In this document: positions 5,416 through 55,694 of the stretch, in pieces
Numbering within the stretch: the stretch's first letter is position 1
Layout: each line of letters opens with the position of its first letter
Origin: Phytohabitans houttuyneae
GTDB taxonomy: Bacteria > Actinomycetota > Actinomycetes > Mycobacteriales > Micromonosporaceae
Reading direction: 5' to 3'
Assembly (NCBI RefSeq): GCF_011764425.1
Contig: NZ_BLPF01000001.1
Location: forward strand, 2,595,001 to 2,659,000
DNA: 64,000 nt
Position numbers and translations under genes: made by a program
The notes under the pieces: model-generated
Database searches by the model: none
Seen by the model: only the letters and a program-made list of their open reading frames with translations
What the model was told of the DNA's origin: nothing

Positions 5416-5467
5416 AGGCCGCGGGAGCAACGGTCCGGACCACCGCGGACATCGCGGTAGCCCAAAT
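5411..5467 (-). repeat. 57-bp 3'-junction repeat, copy A
   Basis: Nearly identical to the copies at 46011, 55637 and 61591 and, inverted, at 54393. Key blocks: a CCGCGG palindrome, the GGTCCGGACC palindrome and the ACCGCG-GACAT-CGCGGT hairpin. The CTACCGCG end faces the ilvE stop codon, 162 bp away. Confidence 0.8.
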
Positions 5468-39014: not shown

Positions 39015-39092
39015 AGATCACGACCCTAGCCCACAGGGCGCGCACAGCCACGGGACAAGGAGAGGCCAGCTTGGGCCGACAACCTCGTCCGC

Positions 39093-41122
39093 ATGACCTC
39101 GACACTGCCTCATGCCGTGCCGGCCCCACCGGCGCCGCCGCCTCCCCGGCGTACCCCCGTCGCCTCCCGCATCCTCCGCGGGCCCGCCGGCGACCCGGCC
39201 TGGACGCGCCCGGCGCTGCTGGTCCTCCTCGTCGCGACGGCCCTGCTCTACCTGTGGGGCCTGGGCGCCTCGGGCTGGGCCAACTCGTTCTACTCGGCCG
39301 CCGCGCAGGCGGGTTCGGCGAGCTGGAAGGCGTTCTTCTTCGGCTCCTCCGACGCCTCCAACGCGATCACCGTGGACAAGCCGCCCGCCTCGCTGTGGGC
39401 GATGGCGCTGTCCGTCCGGGTCTTCGGGCTCAGCTCGTGGAGCATCCTTGTGCCGCAGGCGCTGATGGGCGTCGGGTCGGTGGCGCTGCTCTTCGCCACC
39501 GTCCGCCGCTGGTCCGGGCCGGTCGCGGGCCTGCTCGCCGGCGCGATCCTGGCGACCACGCCGGTGGCGGTGCTGATGTTCCGGTTCAACAATCCGGACG
39601 CGCTGCTGGTGCTGCTGCTGGTGGCCGCCGCGTACGCGACCGTGCGCGCGATCGAGACCGCCGGCACGCGCTGGCTGGTGCTGGCCGGTGCGCTCGTCGG
39701 CTTCGGCTTCCTGACCAAGATGCTGCAGGCACTGCTTGTGGTGCCCGCGTTCGCGCTCGCGTACCTGATCGCGGCGCCCACCTCACTGCGCCGCCGCGTC
39801 GTGCAGGTGCTGTGGGGCGGGCTGGCCATGGTGGCCGCGGCCGGCTGGTGGGTGGCGATCGTGGAGCTGGTGCCCGCGCGCTACCGCCCGTACGTGGGCG
39901 GCTCGCAGAACAACAGCGTCCTCGAGCTCACCCTCGGCTACAACGGCCTCGGGCGGCTCAACGGCAACGAGACCGGCAGTGTCGGCGGCGGACCGGGTGG
40001 CGGCTGGGGGCAGACCGGCCTCACCCGCCTCTTCGACGCGGAAAACGGCGGCCAGATCGCGTGGCTCCTGCCCGCGGCGCTGATGCTGCTGGTGACGGCG
40101 TTCGCTCTGCTGAGGCGGGCGCCGCGCACCGACCGGACGCGCGCGAGCCTGATCCTCTGGGGCGGGTGGCTGCTGATCACCGGGCTGGTCTTCAGCATGA
40201 TGCAGGGCATCTTCCACGCGTACTACAACGTGGCGCTCGCGCCCGCCGTCGGCGCCGTGGTGGCCGTCGGCGCGACCGTGCTGTGGCGGGAGCGCAAGAG
40301 TCCCGCGATCGCCGTGATCCTGGCCGGCACCACCGCGATCACCGCGCTGTGGGCGTGGGTGCTGCTGGGCCGCAGTGCCGACTGGCACCCGTGGCTGCGG
40401 GCGCTCGTGCTGGTGGTCGGCCTCGTTTCGGCCGGCGGGTTCCTGCTGGCCGGACGCCTGGCCAGGTGGGCGGTCACGCTCGTCGCGGCCGGCGCTGTCG
40501 GCGCCGGTTTGTTCGGACCCATCGGGTACGCGCTGAGCACCGCCAGCACCCCGCACACCGGCTCGATCCCCACCGCCGGTCCCGCGGTGGCCGGCGGCCG
40601 CGGCTTCGGCGGTGGCGGCGGTCCTGGCGGTGGTGGCGGTCCCGGCGGCGGCTTCCGGGGCGGTTTTCCGGGCGGCGGCCAGGCGCAGGGGGCTTCCCGG
40701 GCCTGCCGGGCGGCGGTCAGGCGCCGGGCGGCGGCACGACCGGAGGCGGCATGCGGGGCGGCGGCATGGGCGGGCTGCTCGACGCCACCACACCCGACGC
40801 CGAGCTTGTCGCGGCGCTGTCGGAGGACGCCGGCTCGTACACCTGGGTCGCCGCGGCCATCGGCGCCAACAACGCGGCGGGGTACCAGCTCGCCACCGAG
40901 CAGCCCGTGATGGCGATCGGCGGCTTCAACGGCAGCGACCCCTCGCCGACGCTCGCCCAGTTCCAGCGGTACGTGGCCGACGGAAAGATCCACTACTTCA
41001 TCGGCAGCGGGCTGGGGCGCAGCAACGGCGGCAGCGACGCCGCGCAGCAGATCGCGACCTGGGTGGCGGAGAACTTCACCGCCACGACGGTCGGCGGCAC
41101 GACCCTCTACGACCTGTCATGA
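39093..41122 (+). CDS. GT39/PMT-type lipid-linked sugar transferase with Gly-rich linker and exported domain, one apparent base deletion
   Basis: About 676 aa. ArnT/PMT_2-like: many spans, an acidic loop in the first exoplasmic segment ([22 protein letters not shown]), [17 protein letters not shown] and [14 protein letters not shown] long Gly-rich linker (about 510-560) joins a soluble C-terminal domain ([24 protein letters not shown]...[15 protein letters not shown]) outside the membrane. The frame breaks at the G run 40688-40692 inside the linker; one extra G restores a single protein ending ATGA-overlapped with the next gene. It likely moves a sugar from a polyprenyl carrier to a cell envelope acceptor. 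Confidence 0.8.
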
Positions 41123-49094: not shown

Positions 49095-49394
49095 TTACGC
49101 CTCCTCTTCCAGGATCCGAGGCACGCGGAACCGGCCCTCTTCCACGTCGGGCGCGCCGGCGAGAGCGGCCTCCGGCGTCAGGCACGGGACCTCGACGTCG
49201 TCGCGCAGCACGTTGGTCAGCGGCACGGAGTGCGAGGTCGGCGGGATGTCCTCGGCCACGACCTCGCCCACCCGGGCGACCGCCTGGAGGATCACGTCGA
49301 GCTGGCCGGCGAAGAGGTCGAGCTCCTCTTCGGTTACGGCGAGCCGCGACAGGCGCGCGAGGTGCGCGACCTCCTCGCGGGAGATGGCGGCCAT
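49095..49394 (-). CDS. gatC: glutamyl-tRNA(Gln) amidotransferase subunit C
   Basis: 99 aa. [36 protein letters not shown] is the GatC signature; it stabilises the GatA-GatB complex. ATG 49394 has AAAAAGGGGG before it. First gene of gatC-gatA-gatB. Confidence 0.95.
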
Positions 49395-49560
49395 GAGTGC
49401 CCCCTTTTTGAACGGTTGCGGACTGCCCGAGCGTGGCACGTGCCCGGTGACCCGAGCGAGTTTATGACCCCAGCGAGTTTAGTTAGCCACCCTCCGCCGC
49501 CCGCGAGCCGACCCCACGGAAAACGGAGGCATAGACCGAACTCCTCGCCGTCGCCGGCCG

Positions 49561-49571: not shown

Positions 49572-51715
49572 ATGCCCATACGGCGCGAGGTGATCCTGCC
49601 TGCCGCCGATCCTCTCGTCGCATGGCGTCGGATCGCACTGGACAAGCAACTGGCGGCACCGAAGTTTCCGAGTGGCATCCGCGCACCCTCCGTGGTGTTG
49701 CTGTGCGCGCTGCTCGCTCTCGCCGTGGTGTGCGCCGTCTACCTGGGCATGTTTCACGGGCGGGTGATCCCGCAGGCCGTGGTCGACTCGCAGGACCGCC
49801 TTGTCACCAGCCTCGCCCGCGGCCTCAACGCGACGGTCACCAGCGGCGTCGAGGAGATGGAGGCGGCCGCCGAGCAGGTGCCTGCGGGCGGCGACCCGGC
49901 CGCGGTGCTGGCCTCGGCGGCCGGTGGCGGCACGGCCTGGGCCGGCGCGGCGGTGCTCGACGCGGGCAGCCGGCGGCCGGTCGCGGCGCGGGGTGAGCCG
50001 GTGCCGGTGGCGAATGTTCCTCAGGATGTCCCGCGCACCACGGTCACCCCCTTGATCCAAGGCGGCGAGCCGCGCGCGCTGATCGTCGCGCCACTGCCCG
50101 ACGGGCGGCTGCTCGCCGGCATGACCTCCTTGCGCGTACGCCCGCTGCGGCTGGCCCCCAACTCCCGCCAGTCCGTGCTCGTGGGGCTGCCCACCGGCGA
50201 GAGCACGGTCCTGCAGGGCGCGCCCCCCGCCGGCGGGCCGGCCAGCGACGTGATCAAGCGGACGCTCGCCGAGACCCGCGAGGGGCGCGCCGTGCGGTCG
50301 AGCGGCGGACCGGCCGGGAGCGCGCTGCTGGTGGTGGCGGCACCGGTGGGTTCGCTCGGCATCGCGGTGGCCTCGACCGTCTCCGCGCCGGTGATCGACG
50401 TCGGCTCGCCGTGGAAAGGGCTGCTGCCCGCCGCTGGGCTGGTCGTGGCCGCGCTGCTGGCATATCTGGTGGCGCGCCGCGCGCTGGTCCGCCCGGTCCG
50501 CCGGCTGCTGGAGCGCGCCAAGGCGGACGCCTGCGGCGACCCGGGTCCACGACCCAAGATCAAAGGCCCTTCCGAGGTACGCCGCATCGCCGCCGCCCTC
50601 GACGACCGCGCCCGCCCGCGCGGAGTACCGGCCGTGGTGCTGCTCCTCGGCATCCCGGCGATGGTGTTCGCCTGGTGCGGCGCCCTCGGGTACACGTTCG
50701 CCGGCGGCCCCGTGCCGGTGCCCGCGCAGGTGGTCCTGGACAGCGAAAACCAGGTGACCGCCGCGACCCGCGCGCTCGGCGACTCGCTCGACGGTGGGCT
50801 GCGGCAAGCCACGGTCACGGCCGCGCAAAACGCGCAGACGGCGCCGGCTCAGCTCACCCCCGTGCTCGGGCAGCTGGTGGAGAGCGACGACAGGTACCGC
50901 GGCGCGTACGTCACCGACCCCGAAGGGCGGGTCGTGACCACCGCCGGGCGGGAGCCGCTGCGCCAGGCGGAGAAGCTGCCTCAGGAGAGCGGCGTGCGGC
51001 TGGCGAACACGGGCGGGCGGCTGCCGGTCATCTACGCGTACGCGCACCGCCCGGACGGGCACAGCGTGGTGGTCGAGTTCGACGTGCCACGCCTCGCCGA
51101 CCTGCTGCGGCGCGCCGACGGGCGGGTGCGCGTGGTCGACGCCGAGCTGCGCACGATCCTCGACACCGAGGGCTTCCGCGCGTTTCAGCCGCTGGCCGGT
51201 GGCGAGGCCCGCGAGGCGGCGACCACCGCGTCGCAGGGACGCACCGGAGCGAAGATCGCGGGGCGGGCGCTGGTCGCCGGTACCCCCTCGCCGAGCCCAG
51301 CTCCGCGGCGGGCCTGCGCTGGTCCGTGGTGGCCGAGCAGGCCGTTGGTGATCTTGCTTTGCCGGTCAACAGCCTGCGCCGCGCGAGCCTGGTCCTCGGC
51401 GGTGCCGCGGCCTTCCTCGCCGTGGTCGTGCTCGGCTGGCACTACTTCGTGCTGCTGGTGCCGCTGCGGCGGCTCGCCGCGGCGGCGGACCGCATGGCCG
51501 ACGGCGACACCGAGGCGGTGATCTCGCCGCACCGAGCCGACGAGATCGGCGCGATCGCGAGCTGCCTGGAGATCTGCCGCCAGGTGCGCGTGCACGGCCC
51601 GGCCCGCCTCGGCGGCGCCGAACGCCTGCGCGGCACGGGCGCGCCGCCCACGGTCGTCGTGCGCCGCCCACCCAACCGCCAGAAGGTCGGCTCGCGCCGC
51701 GCGGGGAGGCGCTGA
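49572..51715 (+). CDS. tandem extracellular-sensor/HAMP membrane protein, first gene of the pgs operon, with one apparent base deletion
   Basis: About 714 aa after correction. Two repeats of the layout span, extracytoplasmic domain, span, HAMP-like segment: spans near 42-64 and 284-302, then 351-372 and about 605-630. The last segment LRRLAAAADRMADGDTEAVISPHRADEIGAIASCLE is a HAMP, but no kinase, cyclase or methyl-accepting domain follows. The frame breaks at the C run 51283-51287 (after ALVAGTP); one more C restores LAEPSSAAGLRWSVVAEQ. It is tightly linked to pgsB. A role as sensor, scaffold or PgsA substitute is inference only. Confidence 0.7.
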
Positions 51716-51716
51716 G

Positions 51717-52895
51717 GTGCTCTTCCTCTACGGCGTCTTCGCCGCAAGCTGCGTGGTGCTGCTGGTCGCCGGCATCATCGAGCAGCGGGGGCACAACGCC
51801 AACCTGCGCAAGATTCCCACCCGCATCCTCGTCAACGGCATCCGCGGCAAGAGCTCGATCACCCGCCTGTGCGCGGGCGCGTTGCGCGGCGGCGGCCTCT
51901 CCGTGGTCGCGAAGACCACCGGCACGGCGGCGCGCTTCATCTTCACCGACGGCAGCGAGGAGCCGGTCTACCGCAAGTTCGGCATCGCAAACGTGGTCGA
52001 GCAGATCGGCATCGTGCGGCGGGCCGCGATGTACCACCCGGACGCGCTGGTCATGGAGTGCATGGCGGTGATGCCGGCGCTCCAGGAGATCAACCAGGAA
52101 AAGCTGATCCGGTCGACGATCGGCGTGCTGTGCAACGTACGCGAGGACCACCTCGCCGAGATGGGGCCCACGCTCGACGACGTGGCCCGCTCGCTGAGCC
52201 GCTCCATGCCGGTGGGCGGGGTGTGCGTGACCGCCGAGCGGGACCGCCTCGAGATCCTCAAGGAGGAGGCGGCCAAGCGGCGCTGCCGGCTCATCGTGGT
52301 CGACCCGGAGACGGTCTCCGACGAGGAGATGCGCGGCTTCGGCTGGATCACGTTCAAGGAAAACGTCGCGATCGCACTCGCCGTCGCCCGCCTCGTCGGC
52401 ATCGACCGGCGGGCCGCGCTGGCCGGCATGTGGGGCGCGCCGCCCGACCCGGGCGTGCTGACCGTCGAGACCTACGAGGCGAACGGGCGGCGGCTGCGCT
52501 TCGCCAACGTGTTCGCCGCCAACGACCCGGAGTCCACATTGCTCAACGTGCGCCAGCTCGCCCAGCAGGGCCTGATCCGCCGGCCGGTGCACCTGGTCAT
52601 CAACTGCCGGCCCGACCGGGTCGAGCGCAACGGGCAGATGGGGGCGCTGGTGCCGCGGCTGGACCCGGACCGCGTACTGCTGATCGGCGAGCCGACCCGC
52701 AGCGCACTGTCCAAGATCCCGGAGCGCTGGCAGGGGCGGGTCCTCGACCTCGGCGGGCGGCAGCGCCCCGGCGCGATGCTGGACGCGCTGCTGGGCCAGG
52801 TGCGCGGCACGGCCTCGGTGGTCGCGGTCGGCAACATCCACGGCCAGGGCGAGGTCCTGATCGACGAGTTGGCGCGGCTGCGGGGTAAGCGGTGA
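51717..52895 (+). CDS. pgsB: PgsB/CapB-like poly-gamma-glutamate synthase ligase subunit
   Basis: 392 aa. One N-terminal span (residues 2-22) then a Mur-ligase-like ATPase: LVNGIRGKSSITRL is the P-loop (Gly41-Ser46), KTTGTAARFI, ECMAVMPALQEINQEKLIRSTIGVLCNVREDHLAEMGPTLDDVA, APPDPG, FAANDPESTLLN, NCRPDRVERN and GNIHGQGE all match PgsB. In Bacillus it phosphorylates the growing chain's carboxyl and adds glutamate through gamma-amide bonds. GTG at 51717 follows GGGGAGG and is one base from the upstream TGA. The product's monomer and linkage here are unknown. Confidence 0.88.
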   Translation: MLFLYGVFAASCVVLLVAGIIEQRGHNANLRKIPTRILVNGIRGKSSITRLCAGALRGGGLSVVAKTTGTAARFIFTDGSEEPVYRKFGIANVVEQIGIVRRAAMYHPDALVMECMAVMPALQEINQEKLIRSTIGVLCNVREDHLAEMGPTLDDVARSLSRSMPVGGVCVTAERDRLEILKEEAAKRRCRLIVVDPETVSDEEMRGFGWITFKENVAIALAVARLVGIDRRAALAGMWGAPPDPGVLTVETYEANGRRLRFANVFAANDPESTLLNVRQLAQQGLIRRPVHLVINCRPDRVERNGQMGALVPRLDPDRVLLIGEPTRSALSKIPERWQGRVLDLGGRQRPGAMLDALLGQVRGTASVVAVGNIHGQGEVLIDELARLRGKR

Positions 52896-53383
52896 CCTTC
52901 CTTCCCGGCGGGGAGCTGAGCCCGCAGCTCGCGACCATGTGCCTCGGCGTGGGGCTGATCTTCGCGCTGATCTGCTATCTCACCACCAACCTCTCCCCCG
53001 GCGGCATGATCACGCCGGGCTGGGTGGCGCTCGCCATGGTCGAGGACCACCTACAGGCCGCCGTGATGGTGCTGATGACGGTGGTGACCTTCGGGCTCAT
53101 GAAGGTGCTGCAGAAGATCGTCATCCTGTACGGCAAGCGCCTCTTCGCCGCCGTCGTGCTGCTGAGCGTGCTGCTCCAGGTGACCGCGTTCCTCATCATC
53201 CAGCGCGACGTACCGCTGCTGTTCGCCCACCAGACGCTCGGCTTCGTGGCGCCGGGCCTCATCGCGTACCAGCTGATCCGCCAGCCCAAGGGCGCCACCA
53301 TCCTGGCGACGACCGTCGTCTCGGCGGCCACCTACGGCGTCGTGATCAGCGGCATCCTGACCGGCCTGGTGCCGGTGACGTAG
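52892..53383 (+). CDS. pgsC: PgsC/CapC-like membrane subunit of poly-gamma-glutamate synthase
   Basis: 163 aa with about five spans. GLIFALICYLTTNLSPGGMITPGWVAL, KIVILYGKRLFAAVVLLSV and HQTLGFVAPGLIAYQLIRQ match the PgsC pattern (PGxxxPGY, ILYGRRKFA, GxIVPGLIA). PgsC forms the active synthase with PgsB. GTG overlaps the pgsB stop (GTGA), so the two are translationally coupled. No PgsA or PgsE homologue follows. Confidence 0.87.
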   Translation: MTFLPGGELSPQLATMCLGVGLIFALICYLTTNLSPGGMITPGWVALAMVEDHLQAAVMVLMTVVTFGLMKVLQKIVILYGKRLFAAVVLLSVLLQVTAFLIIQRDVPLLFAHQTLGFVAPGLIAYQLIRQPKGATILATTVVSAATYGVVISGILTGLVPVT

Positions 53384-53407
53384 AAGGTCGTGGAGGGAGT
53401 GTTGTCG

Positions 53408-54385
53408 ATGCGCGGGATCTTCGTGAGCGCCGCCGCCGTGGTACTGCTCGCGGGCGGCGCCGCCGCCTGCCAGCGGGGCGAGGTGGAGGGCACAGCGCCG
53501 GCCGCCGCCGCCCCCGACTTCGTGTCCGCGCCTCCCGTGGAGGAGCTGCAGTTCAAGCGGGTGAGCAATCCAGCCCGCACGCTCGTCGTCGACGCGGAGG
53601 GCGCGACGCTCGCGGTCTTCACCGACAAGGCCCGCACGGTGCGCCTGACCGGCCCCTCACGCACCTTCGCCGAGGAGGCTCACACAGCAGCGACCGTCAC
53701 CACGGACGCCTGGATACGGCTGGCGCCGCGCGCGTGGCAGAAGGACGCCGTTGACGACACCTGGGTGCGCCCGTGGCTGGAAAAGGCACTCGCCGACCGC
53801 AGCCCCGACGCGCTCGCCATCGCGATGGAGTACACCGAGGGCGGCAAGCGCAACGCCTCGTTCGGCCCGCTCTCGACCACCGACCCCGACGGCCGCGCCG
53901 AGCGCTCGGACTTCTACGACTACCTCGGCATCGACTGGGAGTTCCCGGACGGCAAGAAGGAACGCCCCGACCCCGACCACATCCGCAGCCTCGACTGCTC
54001 CGGCTTCCTCCGCATGGTGTACGGCTACCGCATGGGCTACCCCCTCCGCGGCACCAACACGGCCGGCACGGGCCTGCCCCGCCGCGCGTACGCGATGGCC
54101 GCGCTGGGCCCGGGCGTGCAGCTGATGCCCAACCGCGGCACGCAGGCCCGCGAGTACGAACGCCTCAACGCCGGCGACCTCGTCTTCTTCAACGGCGGCC
54201 CGGTCCTGAACGACCACATCGAGCACATGGGCATGTACCTGGGCGTGGACAGCAACGGCCGGCACCGCTTCATCTCCAGCCGCACCAAGGCCGACGGCCC
54301 GACCCTTGGCGACACCGGCGGCGACTCGCTGCTGGACGGCTCCGGCCACTACGGCGTCCGTTTCCGCACGGCCCGCCGCATCTAA
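53408..54385 (+). CDS. NlpC/P60-type lipoprotein, candidate polyglutamate hydrolase
   Basis: 325 aa. ATG at 53408 lies 8 nt after GGAGGGAG. VVLLAGGAAAC is a lipobox-like end (Cys21). After an uncharacterised N-terminal half, an NlpC/P60 domain has the catalytic Cys197 in SLDCSGFLRMVYG and the His in NDHIEHMGMYLG, with LNAGDLVFF typical of the fold. In Bacillus subtilis, PgdS, an NlpC/P60 enzyme encoded just beside pgsBCA, cuts poly-gamma-glutamate. The same position here suggests a polymer-trimming or release role; peptidoglycan hydrolysis is the alternative. Confidence 0.8.
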   Translation: MRGIFVSAAAVVLLAGGAAACQRGEVEGTAPAAAAPDFVSAPPVEELQFKRVSNPARTLVVDAEGATLAVFTDKARTVRLTGPSRTFAEEAHTAATVTTDAWIRLAPRAWQKDAVDDTWVRPWLEKALADRSPDALAIAMEYTEGGKRNASFGPLSTTDPDGRAERSDFYDYLGIDWEFPDGKKERPDPDHIRSLDCSGFLRMVYGYRMGYPLRGTNTAGTGLPRRAYAMAALGPGVQLMPNRGTQAREYERLNAGDLVFFNGGPVLNDHIEHMGMYLGVDSNGRHRFISSRTKADGPTLGDTGGDSLLDGSGHYGVRFRTARRI

Positions 54386-54392
54386 ACCCGCA

Positions 54393-54450
54393 GATTCGAG
54401 CTACCGCGACGCCCGTCGTGGTCCGGACCGTTGCTCCCGCGGCCTCACCC
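54393..54450 (+). repeat. 57-bp 3'-junction repeat, copy C
   Basis: Reads GATTCGAGCTACCGCG from 7 nt after the NlpC/P60 stop, so its polarity towards the upstream stop codon matches the other copies. The GACGCCCGTCGTGG variant links it to copy E. Confidence 0.8.
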
Positions 54451-55636: not shown

Positions 55637-55694
55637 GGGTGAGGCCGCGGGAGCAACGGTCCGGACCACCGCGGACATCGCGGTAGCTCAAATC
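55637..55694 (-). repeat. 57-bp 3'-junction repeat, copy D
   Basis: Matches copies A and B. Its GATTTGAGCTACCGCG end begins 17 nt after the stop of the GGDEF gene at 55712. Confidence 0.8.

Follow-up and report, generated by a model that had tools for sequence, protein, structure and literature searches.

An actinobacterial variant of the poly-gamma-glutamate synthase operon with a tandem dCache-HAMP membrane protein

What role can a membrane protein built like a chemoreceptor, with no recognizable output domain, play next to the genes of a polymer synthase? This question is raised by a locus of Phytohabitans houttuyneae (Micromonosporaceae; assembly GCF_011764425.1), whose 11.3-Mb genome has other Phytohabitans species as its nearest relatives. 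We analyzed a 64,000-nucleotide stretch of contig NZ_BLPF01000001.1 (positions 2,595,001 to 2,659,000), hereafter called the window. Past the divergent gatC gene, it carries from 5′ to 3′ a membrane protein gene starting at position 49572, pgsB, pgsC, and an NlpC/P60 gene; these four genes are real. A previous sequence-only reading of the window had described them as a poly-gamma-glutamate (PGA)-type operon without PgsA, framed by a tandem sensor/HAMP protein and an NlpC/P60 lipoprotein. Judged by homology, the locus represents a form of the PGA synthase operon that occurs widely in the actinobacterial samples searched and has a dCache-HAMP protein as its constant extra part. The overall explanation that we favor, with a probability of roughly 0.55, is a PgsBC-type polymer operon in which this dCache-HAMP partner gates PgsB.

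The PgsB-PgsC pair and its distribution

The second gene, pgsB (51717–52895, + strand), encodes a Mur-ligase-like amide ligase of 392 residues with a P-loop (51831–51866) and a GNIHG element (52830–52844). It scores 387.7 bits against the NCBIfam equivalog model TIGR04012, whose cut-off is 222.7, and its motifs NGIRGKSS and GNIHGQGE are invariant in the 15 aligned sequences, window included. The following gene, pgsC (52892–53383, + strand), overlaps pgsB by the sequence GTGA and encodes a 163-residue PgsC/CapC membrane protein that reaches 110.5 bits with Pfam CapC (PF14102; cut-off 27). The overlap, the P-loop, and the GNIHG element noted in the sequence-only reading are thus borne out, as is its identification of a genuine PgsB/PgsC pair. 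That this PgsB is in fact a Mur ligase is disfavored by the TIGR04012 scores. Matches to the PgsB model under the cut-off in the class and family genome samples, compared by score only, are all at or below 26.2 bits and presumably correspond to Mur ligases or FolC. PgsB is present as a single copy in this genome, where no second pgsBC was found. By sequence, no solved structure convincingly matches PgsB or PgsC. Very probably, these two genes encode a PgsBC-type polymer synthase.

In many relatives, including many Streptomyces loci, PgsB has a long, variable, low-complexity C-terminal extension, of about 300 residues in locus L006 (L006:6001–8049; loci are cited by L numbers). This extension is absent from the window and from the three Phytohabitans congeners L003–L005.

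Of 394 genomes sampled from the class, 14 have a PgsB homolog scoring over the cut-off, as have 21 of 396 from the phylum. Such homologs are present in 19 of 150 genomes of the window's family (taken as Micromonosporaceae) and in 45 of 150 from a genus that we took as Streptomyces because one of its genomes and L037 (Streptomyces aureus) carry an identical PgsB. Within the host genus, PgsB of the window is 95% identical to that of P. flavus, 94% to that of P. maris, and 92% to that of P. suffuscus. Despite these counts, none of the open-access literature matches listed deals with a pgsBC operon in Streptomyces or Micromonosporaceae, or with a sensor of this kind beside one, which is not proof of novelty. 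The terms "actino" and "Streptomyces" are absent from the main text of two reviews (PMC5751247; PMC10897055). A "poly-gamma-glutamate biosynthesis protein" is named in a Frankia secretome paper (PMC2266912).

A tandem dCache-HAMP protein linked to pgsB in one PgsB branch

The first gene, hereafter the sensor gene, is split between two frames in the window. Its first part (49572–51286, + strand) encodes a transmembrane segment (TM1), dCache1 (approximately 49749–50411), TM2, HAMP1 (approximately 50481–50627), TM3, and the start and most of dCache2, as delimited by the open reading frame (ORF) and by hand mapping from the model described below. The second part (51287–51715, + strand), an ORF in the other frame, encodes the end of dCache2, TM4, HAMP2 (approximately 51449–51598; PF00672, 35.4 bits), and a short tail. 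In L003–L005 the gene is intact and forms one open frame of 714 residues. For the fold and domain tests, the L003 protein therefore stands in for the product of the broken gene.

The AlphaFold model of the L003 protein, built with 64 aligned sequences, has a mean predicted local distance difference test score (pLDDT) of 86.6 and a predicted template modeling score of 0.77. We read it as the succession TM, dCache, TM, HAMP, TM, dCache, TM, HAMP, and a loose tail of about 38 residues, mostly modeled with low confidence. In Foldseek searches, this model falls among the ligand-binding dCache domains known from chemoreceptors and kinases. Among 64 orthologs scanned with Pfam, all contain HAMP and 38 contain dCache_1, and none has a kinase, chemotaxis, GGDEF, phosphatase, or other output domain; a simple hydropathy scan of 64 sensor sequences gave four to six membrane segments. 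The architecture announced by the sequence-only reading, two extracellular domains and HAMP segments with no output domain, is therefore retained; the gene behind it, intact in the congeners, does not form a single open frame in the window. Comparison by hhalign shows the two halves of the protein to be homologous (probability 99.6, E = 1.3e-23). Single-unit versions adjoin pgsB in L156 and L277, and both score higher with the second half. Out of ten regions drawn by hand, HAMP2 is the best conserved, with a mean top-residue frequency of 0.67, and the tail is the least (0.17). The other matches to the sensor in the genome of the window do not exceed 37.6 bits, and the sensor had no match on plasmids at E = 1e-20.

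We compared the best 80 of 334 loci, with one genome per species, which are hence the closest relatives. All 80 carry sensor, PgsB, and PgsC, more than chance would give, and 78 also carry NlpC/P60; the gene order is thus conserved, whereas its absence from relatives would have refuted the sequence-only reading. The sensor is only partial in L016 and L036, because the contig ends there. The surroundings differ. Among these loci, gatA, gatB, gatC, ligA, and a GGDEF-EAL neighbor are near the cassette only in L003–L005, and the position of gatC itself (49095–49439, − strand in the window; ORF) is common only to three Phytohabitans. Since this neighborhood is so restricted, the cassette is kept together in changing surroundings.

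A broader set of 128 distinct PgsB loci, that is 142 minus fourteen duplicates, was assembled with flanks taken from a hand-chosen subset of the matches in other genomes. In this set, a gene counts as "near" if it lies within 9 kb and scores over 25 bits; contig ends cut several loci, L016, L031, L036, L054, L262, and L282 among them, and absences there mean little. The sensor accompanies PgsB in 109 of the 128 loci. Outside the window it is on the strand of pgsB in 108 of 108 loci, and in 94 of these its end lies between an overlap of 4 bases and a distance of 20 bases before the pgsB start, as estimated from the profile match (of 96 loci at 20 bases or less, two, at −25 and −1697, are omitted from this count). 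On a PgsB tree of the 128 rows, obtained by a quick search, sensor presence requires one change and linked CapA 16. Several long branches make the deep placements unsure. Read most simply, the tree suggests a single gain of the sensor together with this PgsB type and its retention since then, with a CapA linkage that comes and goes. Because of the adjacency on one strand and the single origin without loss on the tree, the sensor protein is probably a functional partner of the PgsBC synthase.

CapA, proposed gating, and rival roles for the sensor

In the sequence-only reading, the sensor occupied the place of PgsA/CapA, on the premise that export in Bacillus needs this protein. The premise is disputed: in one study, pgsBC alone gave PGA in recombinant B. 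subtilis, although earlier studies that it cites had judged all three genes indispensable (PMC6029982). A capsule survey treats CapA as accessory and reports PGA-type capsule genes in most phyla; it assigns five or more of eight capsule groups to Actinobacteria, and the part of its text available does not state whether PGA is among them (PMC5542703).

Clustering of the neighboring genes revealed one family in 21 loci whose L006 member corresponds to Pfam PGA_cap (E = 3.1e-65), that is CapA, and tblastn located CapA upstream of the sensor gene in 24 of the 80 loci. The absence of PgsA as a defining trait of the system was therefore rejected. In profile searches, 36 of the 109 sensor loci had CapA near them, against 17 of the 19 that lack the sensor (Fisher p = 4e-6, uncorrected for descent); the two sensor-less loci without a near CapA are L155 and L282, the latter at a contig end. 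CapA scoring over 220 bits is encoded somewhere in 35 of 49 operon genomes. A profile search of the other 14 left three in which PF09587 was not found, the completeness of these genomes not being told.

No CapA gene is near the operon in the window, so "without PgsA" is true of the locus. It is not true of the system, as the same genome has a pair of PF09587 genes unlinked to the operon, with no second pgsBC accompanying them. One of these unlinked CapA proteins (L142, on contig 3) shares 49% identity with the linked type. Its orthologs are 86–87% identical in three other operon-bearing Phytohabitans and 80% in another congener, whose genome has no PgsB above the cut-off. It may act with this operon, as a candidate and no more. 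Two copies of the 19-base part of a repeat described below lie directly downstream of its gene. P. flavus has a second, sensor-less locus with the order PgsB-PgsC-NlpC-CapA. In the family, CapA of the window's own type (E = 1e-50 or better) was counted in 15 of 19 PgsB-positive and 46 of 131 PgsB-negative genomes, a hand comparison that assumes that the same genomes were drawn. Given the linked fraction of 36 in 109, the unlinked homologs, and the three genomes with none, sequence comparison indicates that in this PgsBC branch the sensor is the constant partner and CapA the optional one.

In the main rival explanation, on which these distributions bear, the dCache-HAMP protein structurally replaces PgsA/CapA: its sensor domains would be degenerate and have lost their signaling function, and the protein would serve as a scaffold for assembly or export. 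The lower frequency of near CapA at sensor loci than at sensor-less ones is what such a replacement predicts, as are the three genomes in which no PF09587 was found, and dCache-like domains do serve in the alpha2delta subunits of calcium channels, although these were poor and late fold matches. However, CapA and the sensor occur together in the 36 loci cited above and most operon genomes retain a high-scoring CapA. The association moreover depends on one origin of the sensor, and HAMP2 is conserved above the rest of the protein, which would be needless for a mere scaffold. We consider this replacement unlikely, and the proposal that the sensor stands in for PgsA/CapA is not sustained.

We prefer a mechanism in which the sensor regulates the synthase. 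PgsB, as the ATP-dependent amide ligase, and PgsC, as its membrane partner, would polymerize and pass out a gamma-glutamyl or similar amino-acid polymer, which the NlpC/P60 enzyme would trim or release outside the cell. The dCache-HAMP protein would form a complex with PgsB/PgsC; its two dCache domains would read either a small compound outside the cell or the polymer itself, and their state would be passed to PgsB via the terminal HAMP, setting the activity or the assembly of the synthase. We propose a contact between HAMP2 and PgsB because no cytoplasmic part of the protein is better conserved than HAMP2 and no conserved segment follows it. CapA would help where present, and in this genome might be supplied from an unlinked gene. 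What the analysis establishes is which genes are there and in what order, their homologies, the predicted fold, and the distribution among the samples; what we infer is the complex, its gating, the ligand, the identity of the polymer, and the action of the unlinked CapA. That the sensor acts by HAMP-to-PgsB gating and not as a scaffold is a tentative proposal, held at somewhat less than even odds. Its stricter form, a ligand-gated regulatory subunit within the synthase that requires no kinase, cyclic-di-GMP, or transcription step, is more doubtful. Through such a sensor-like protein, the outside world may control polymer synthesis directly. If the sensor is a subunit, a chemoreceptor-type input would be wired straight to a polymer synthase, a new kind of HAMP output. 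The disputed role of PgsA/CapA also becomes testable, as the few genomes apparently without CapA keep the sensor.

HAMP and dCache modules are usually parts of signaling chains. The sensor might thus act on another partner, a kinase or the expression of the operon, and be merely co-transcribed with pgsBC, especially as its contact with PgsB is only inferred. The 64 orthologs lacking any output domain in the Pfam scan argue against such a chain. The only kinase-like and response-regulator-like neighbors (clusters 13 and 14), recognized by eye among the 25 largest neighbor clusters, most others of which were not identified, occur in six loci. An action on another partner therefore seems quite unlikely.

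Several observations weigh against direct gating of a PGA-type synthase by the sensor. The branch uniting the 109 sensor rows has a Shimodaira–Hasegawa-like approximate likelihood ratio support of 91 and is not starred. With its single origin, the sensor provides only one independent pair for the sensor/CapA contrast. The distance correlations of the sensor with PgsB (0.85) and PgsC (0.90) indicate no special tie, since cassette gene pairs span 0.62–0.92, with no control gene. PgsC scores 74.5 bits with the NCBIfam equivalog TIGR04011, under the cut-off of 96.45. Finally, the sensor gene of the window is frame-broken near 51,286, where it lacks one base relative to three congeners.

The low PgsC score would suit another amide-linked product, for example a peptide attached to the cell wall or another amino-acid polymer. 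NlpC/P60 enzymes are often cell-wall peptidases, and no actinomycete polymer of the PGA kind is described among the literature matches listed. Conversely, PgsB lies far over its own equivalog cut-off, and CapA accompanies PgsB-PgsC in nearly all sensor-less actinobacterial loci. We regard a different product as improbable.

The frame break could mean that the sensor gene is decaying in this strain and that the system is dead here. However, gatA, an essential gene, is broken in like manner, with two one-base gaps near its end (approximately 47,629 and 47,749 in the window) compared with three congeners. As the P. flavus chromosome, although in one contig, also has a completeness score of only 89%, these assemblies seem rich in indels. 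Because of the gatA breaks, the break in the sensor gene is likely an assembly error and less probably a real mutation. pgsB, pgsC, and nlpC are all open in the window. A dead system is thus highly unlikely.

The exported peptidase, the surroundings, and known systems

The fourth gene (53390–54385, + strand; PF00877) encodes an exported peptidase of the NlpC/P60 type that has a beta domain at its N terminus. Its model (pLDDT 87.2) shows, behind the beta domain, one NlpC/P60 domain, which matches 7cfl in the PDB (E = 3.6e-5); the Pfam scan likewise has a single PF00877 stretch. For the beta domain, Foldseek returned no convincing PDB match. The predicted catalytic cysteine is Cys203 (codon 53996–53998), and a further conserved residue is His279 (codon 54224–54226). 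His279 is present in all 52 aligned rows and Cys203 in 47, replaced by Ser in L014, L018, L032, L048, and L066; because of this replacement, cleavage may have been lost in these relatives, some of which may be inactive. The sequence-only reading had called this protein a lipoprotein resembling PgdS in position and fold. A conserved lipoprotein is not supported, as the signal-peptide Cys27 is common to two of 52 rows, window included, and a lipobox-like string to four. The resemblance to PgdS holds for the position and for one NlpC/P60 domain only.

A further exported, often lipoprotein-like family, lp4 (L006:9601–10542, − strand), is encoded beside the operon in 53 of the 80 loci. It was not found in the genome of the window, in a search lacking a positive control in the same tool, and has no convincing match in Pfam, NCBIfam, PHROGs, or PDB sequences. 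His150, His191, and His215 are invariant and Glu158 nearly so, a pattern that may recall the His-Glu-His zinc site reported for PghL and other gamma-PGA hydrolases (PMC6506827).

A gene of the YkcB-like mannosyltransferase family (profile score 365 bits) is located at approximately 39030–40907 of the window, and 19 of 80 relatives have such a gene close to the operon. No Rfam family reaches its gathering score around the operon. No consensus sigma-70 promoter was found at the operon, a negative that is uninformative because the genome is GC-rich. A dispersed intergenic repeat is present at 54393–54450 and 55637–55694, and also at 5425, 46024, and 61605. Its 32-base core has five matches in the 64 kb, where none is expected, and at one place it forms 58-base inverted arms 1.2 kb apart. 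An exact 19-base part was found in three of 307 fetched loci, all from this genome.

Like PgsBCA/CapBCA of Bacillus, the locus encodes PgsB then PgsC with a gene for an NlpC-type hydrolase close by, and CapA homologs are present in the genome. Unlike it, a tandem dCache-HAMP gene precedes pgsB, and CapA lies outside the locus and is optional among relatives. PgdS of Bacillus is an NlpC-type hydrolase with several NlpC/P60 domains. Here too an NlpC/P60 domain is encoded after the synthase genes, but it is single, follows a beta domain, and has Ser for the catalytic Cys in the five relatives cited above. The sensor-less actinobacterial pgs loci, with the order PgsB-PgsC-CapA, or PgsB-PgsC-NlpC-CapA in L144, L148, and L152, have PgsB and PgsC in common with the locus studied here; they lack the dCache-HAMP protein and fall outside the sensor branch on the PgsB tree. 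Finally, the sensor domains of Tlp3, PctA, PctB, CtaA, KinD, and DctB display the same dCache fold with TM and HAMP segments, whereas, in contrast to these dCache chemoreceptors and histidine kinases, the protein described here consists of two tandem units and ends soon after its second HAMP.

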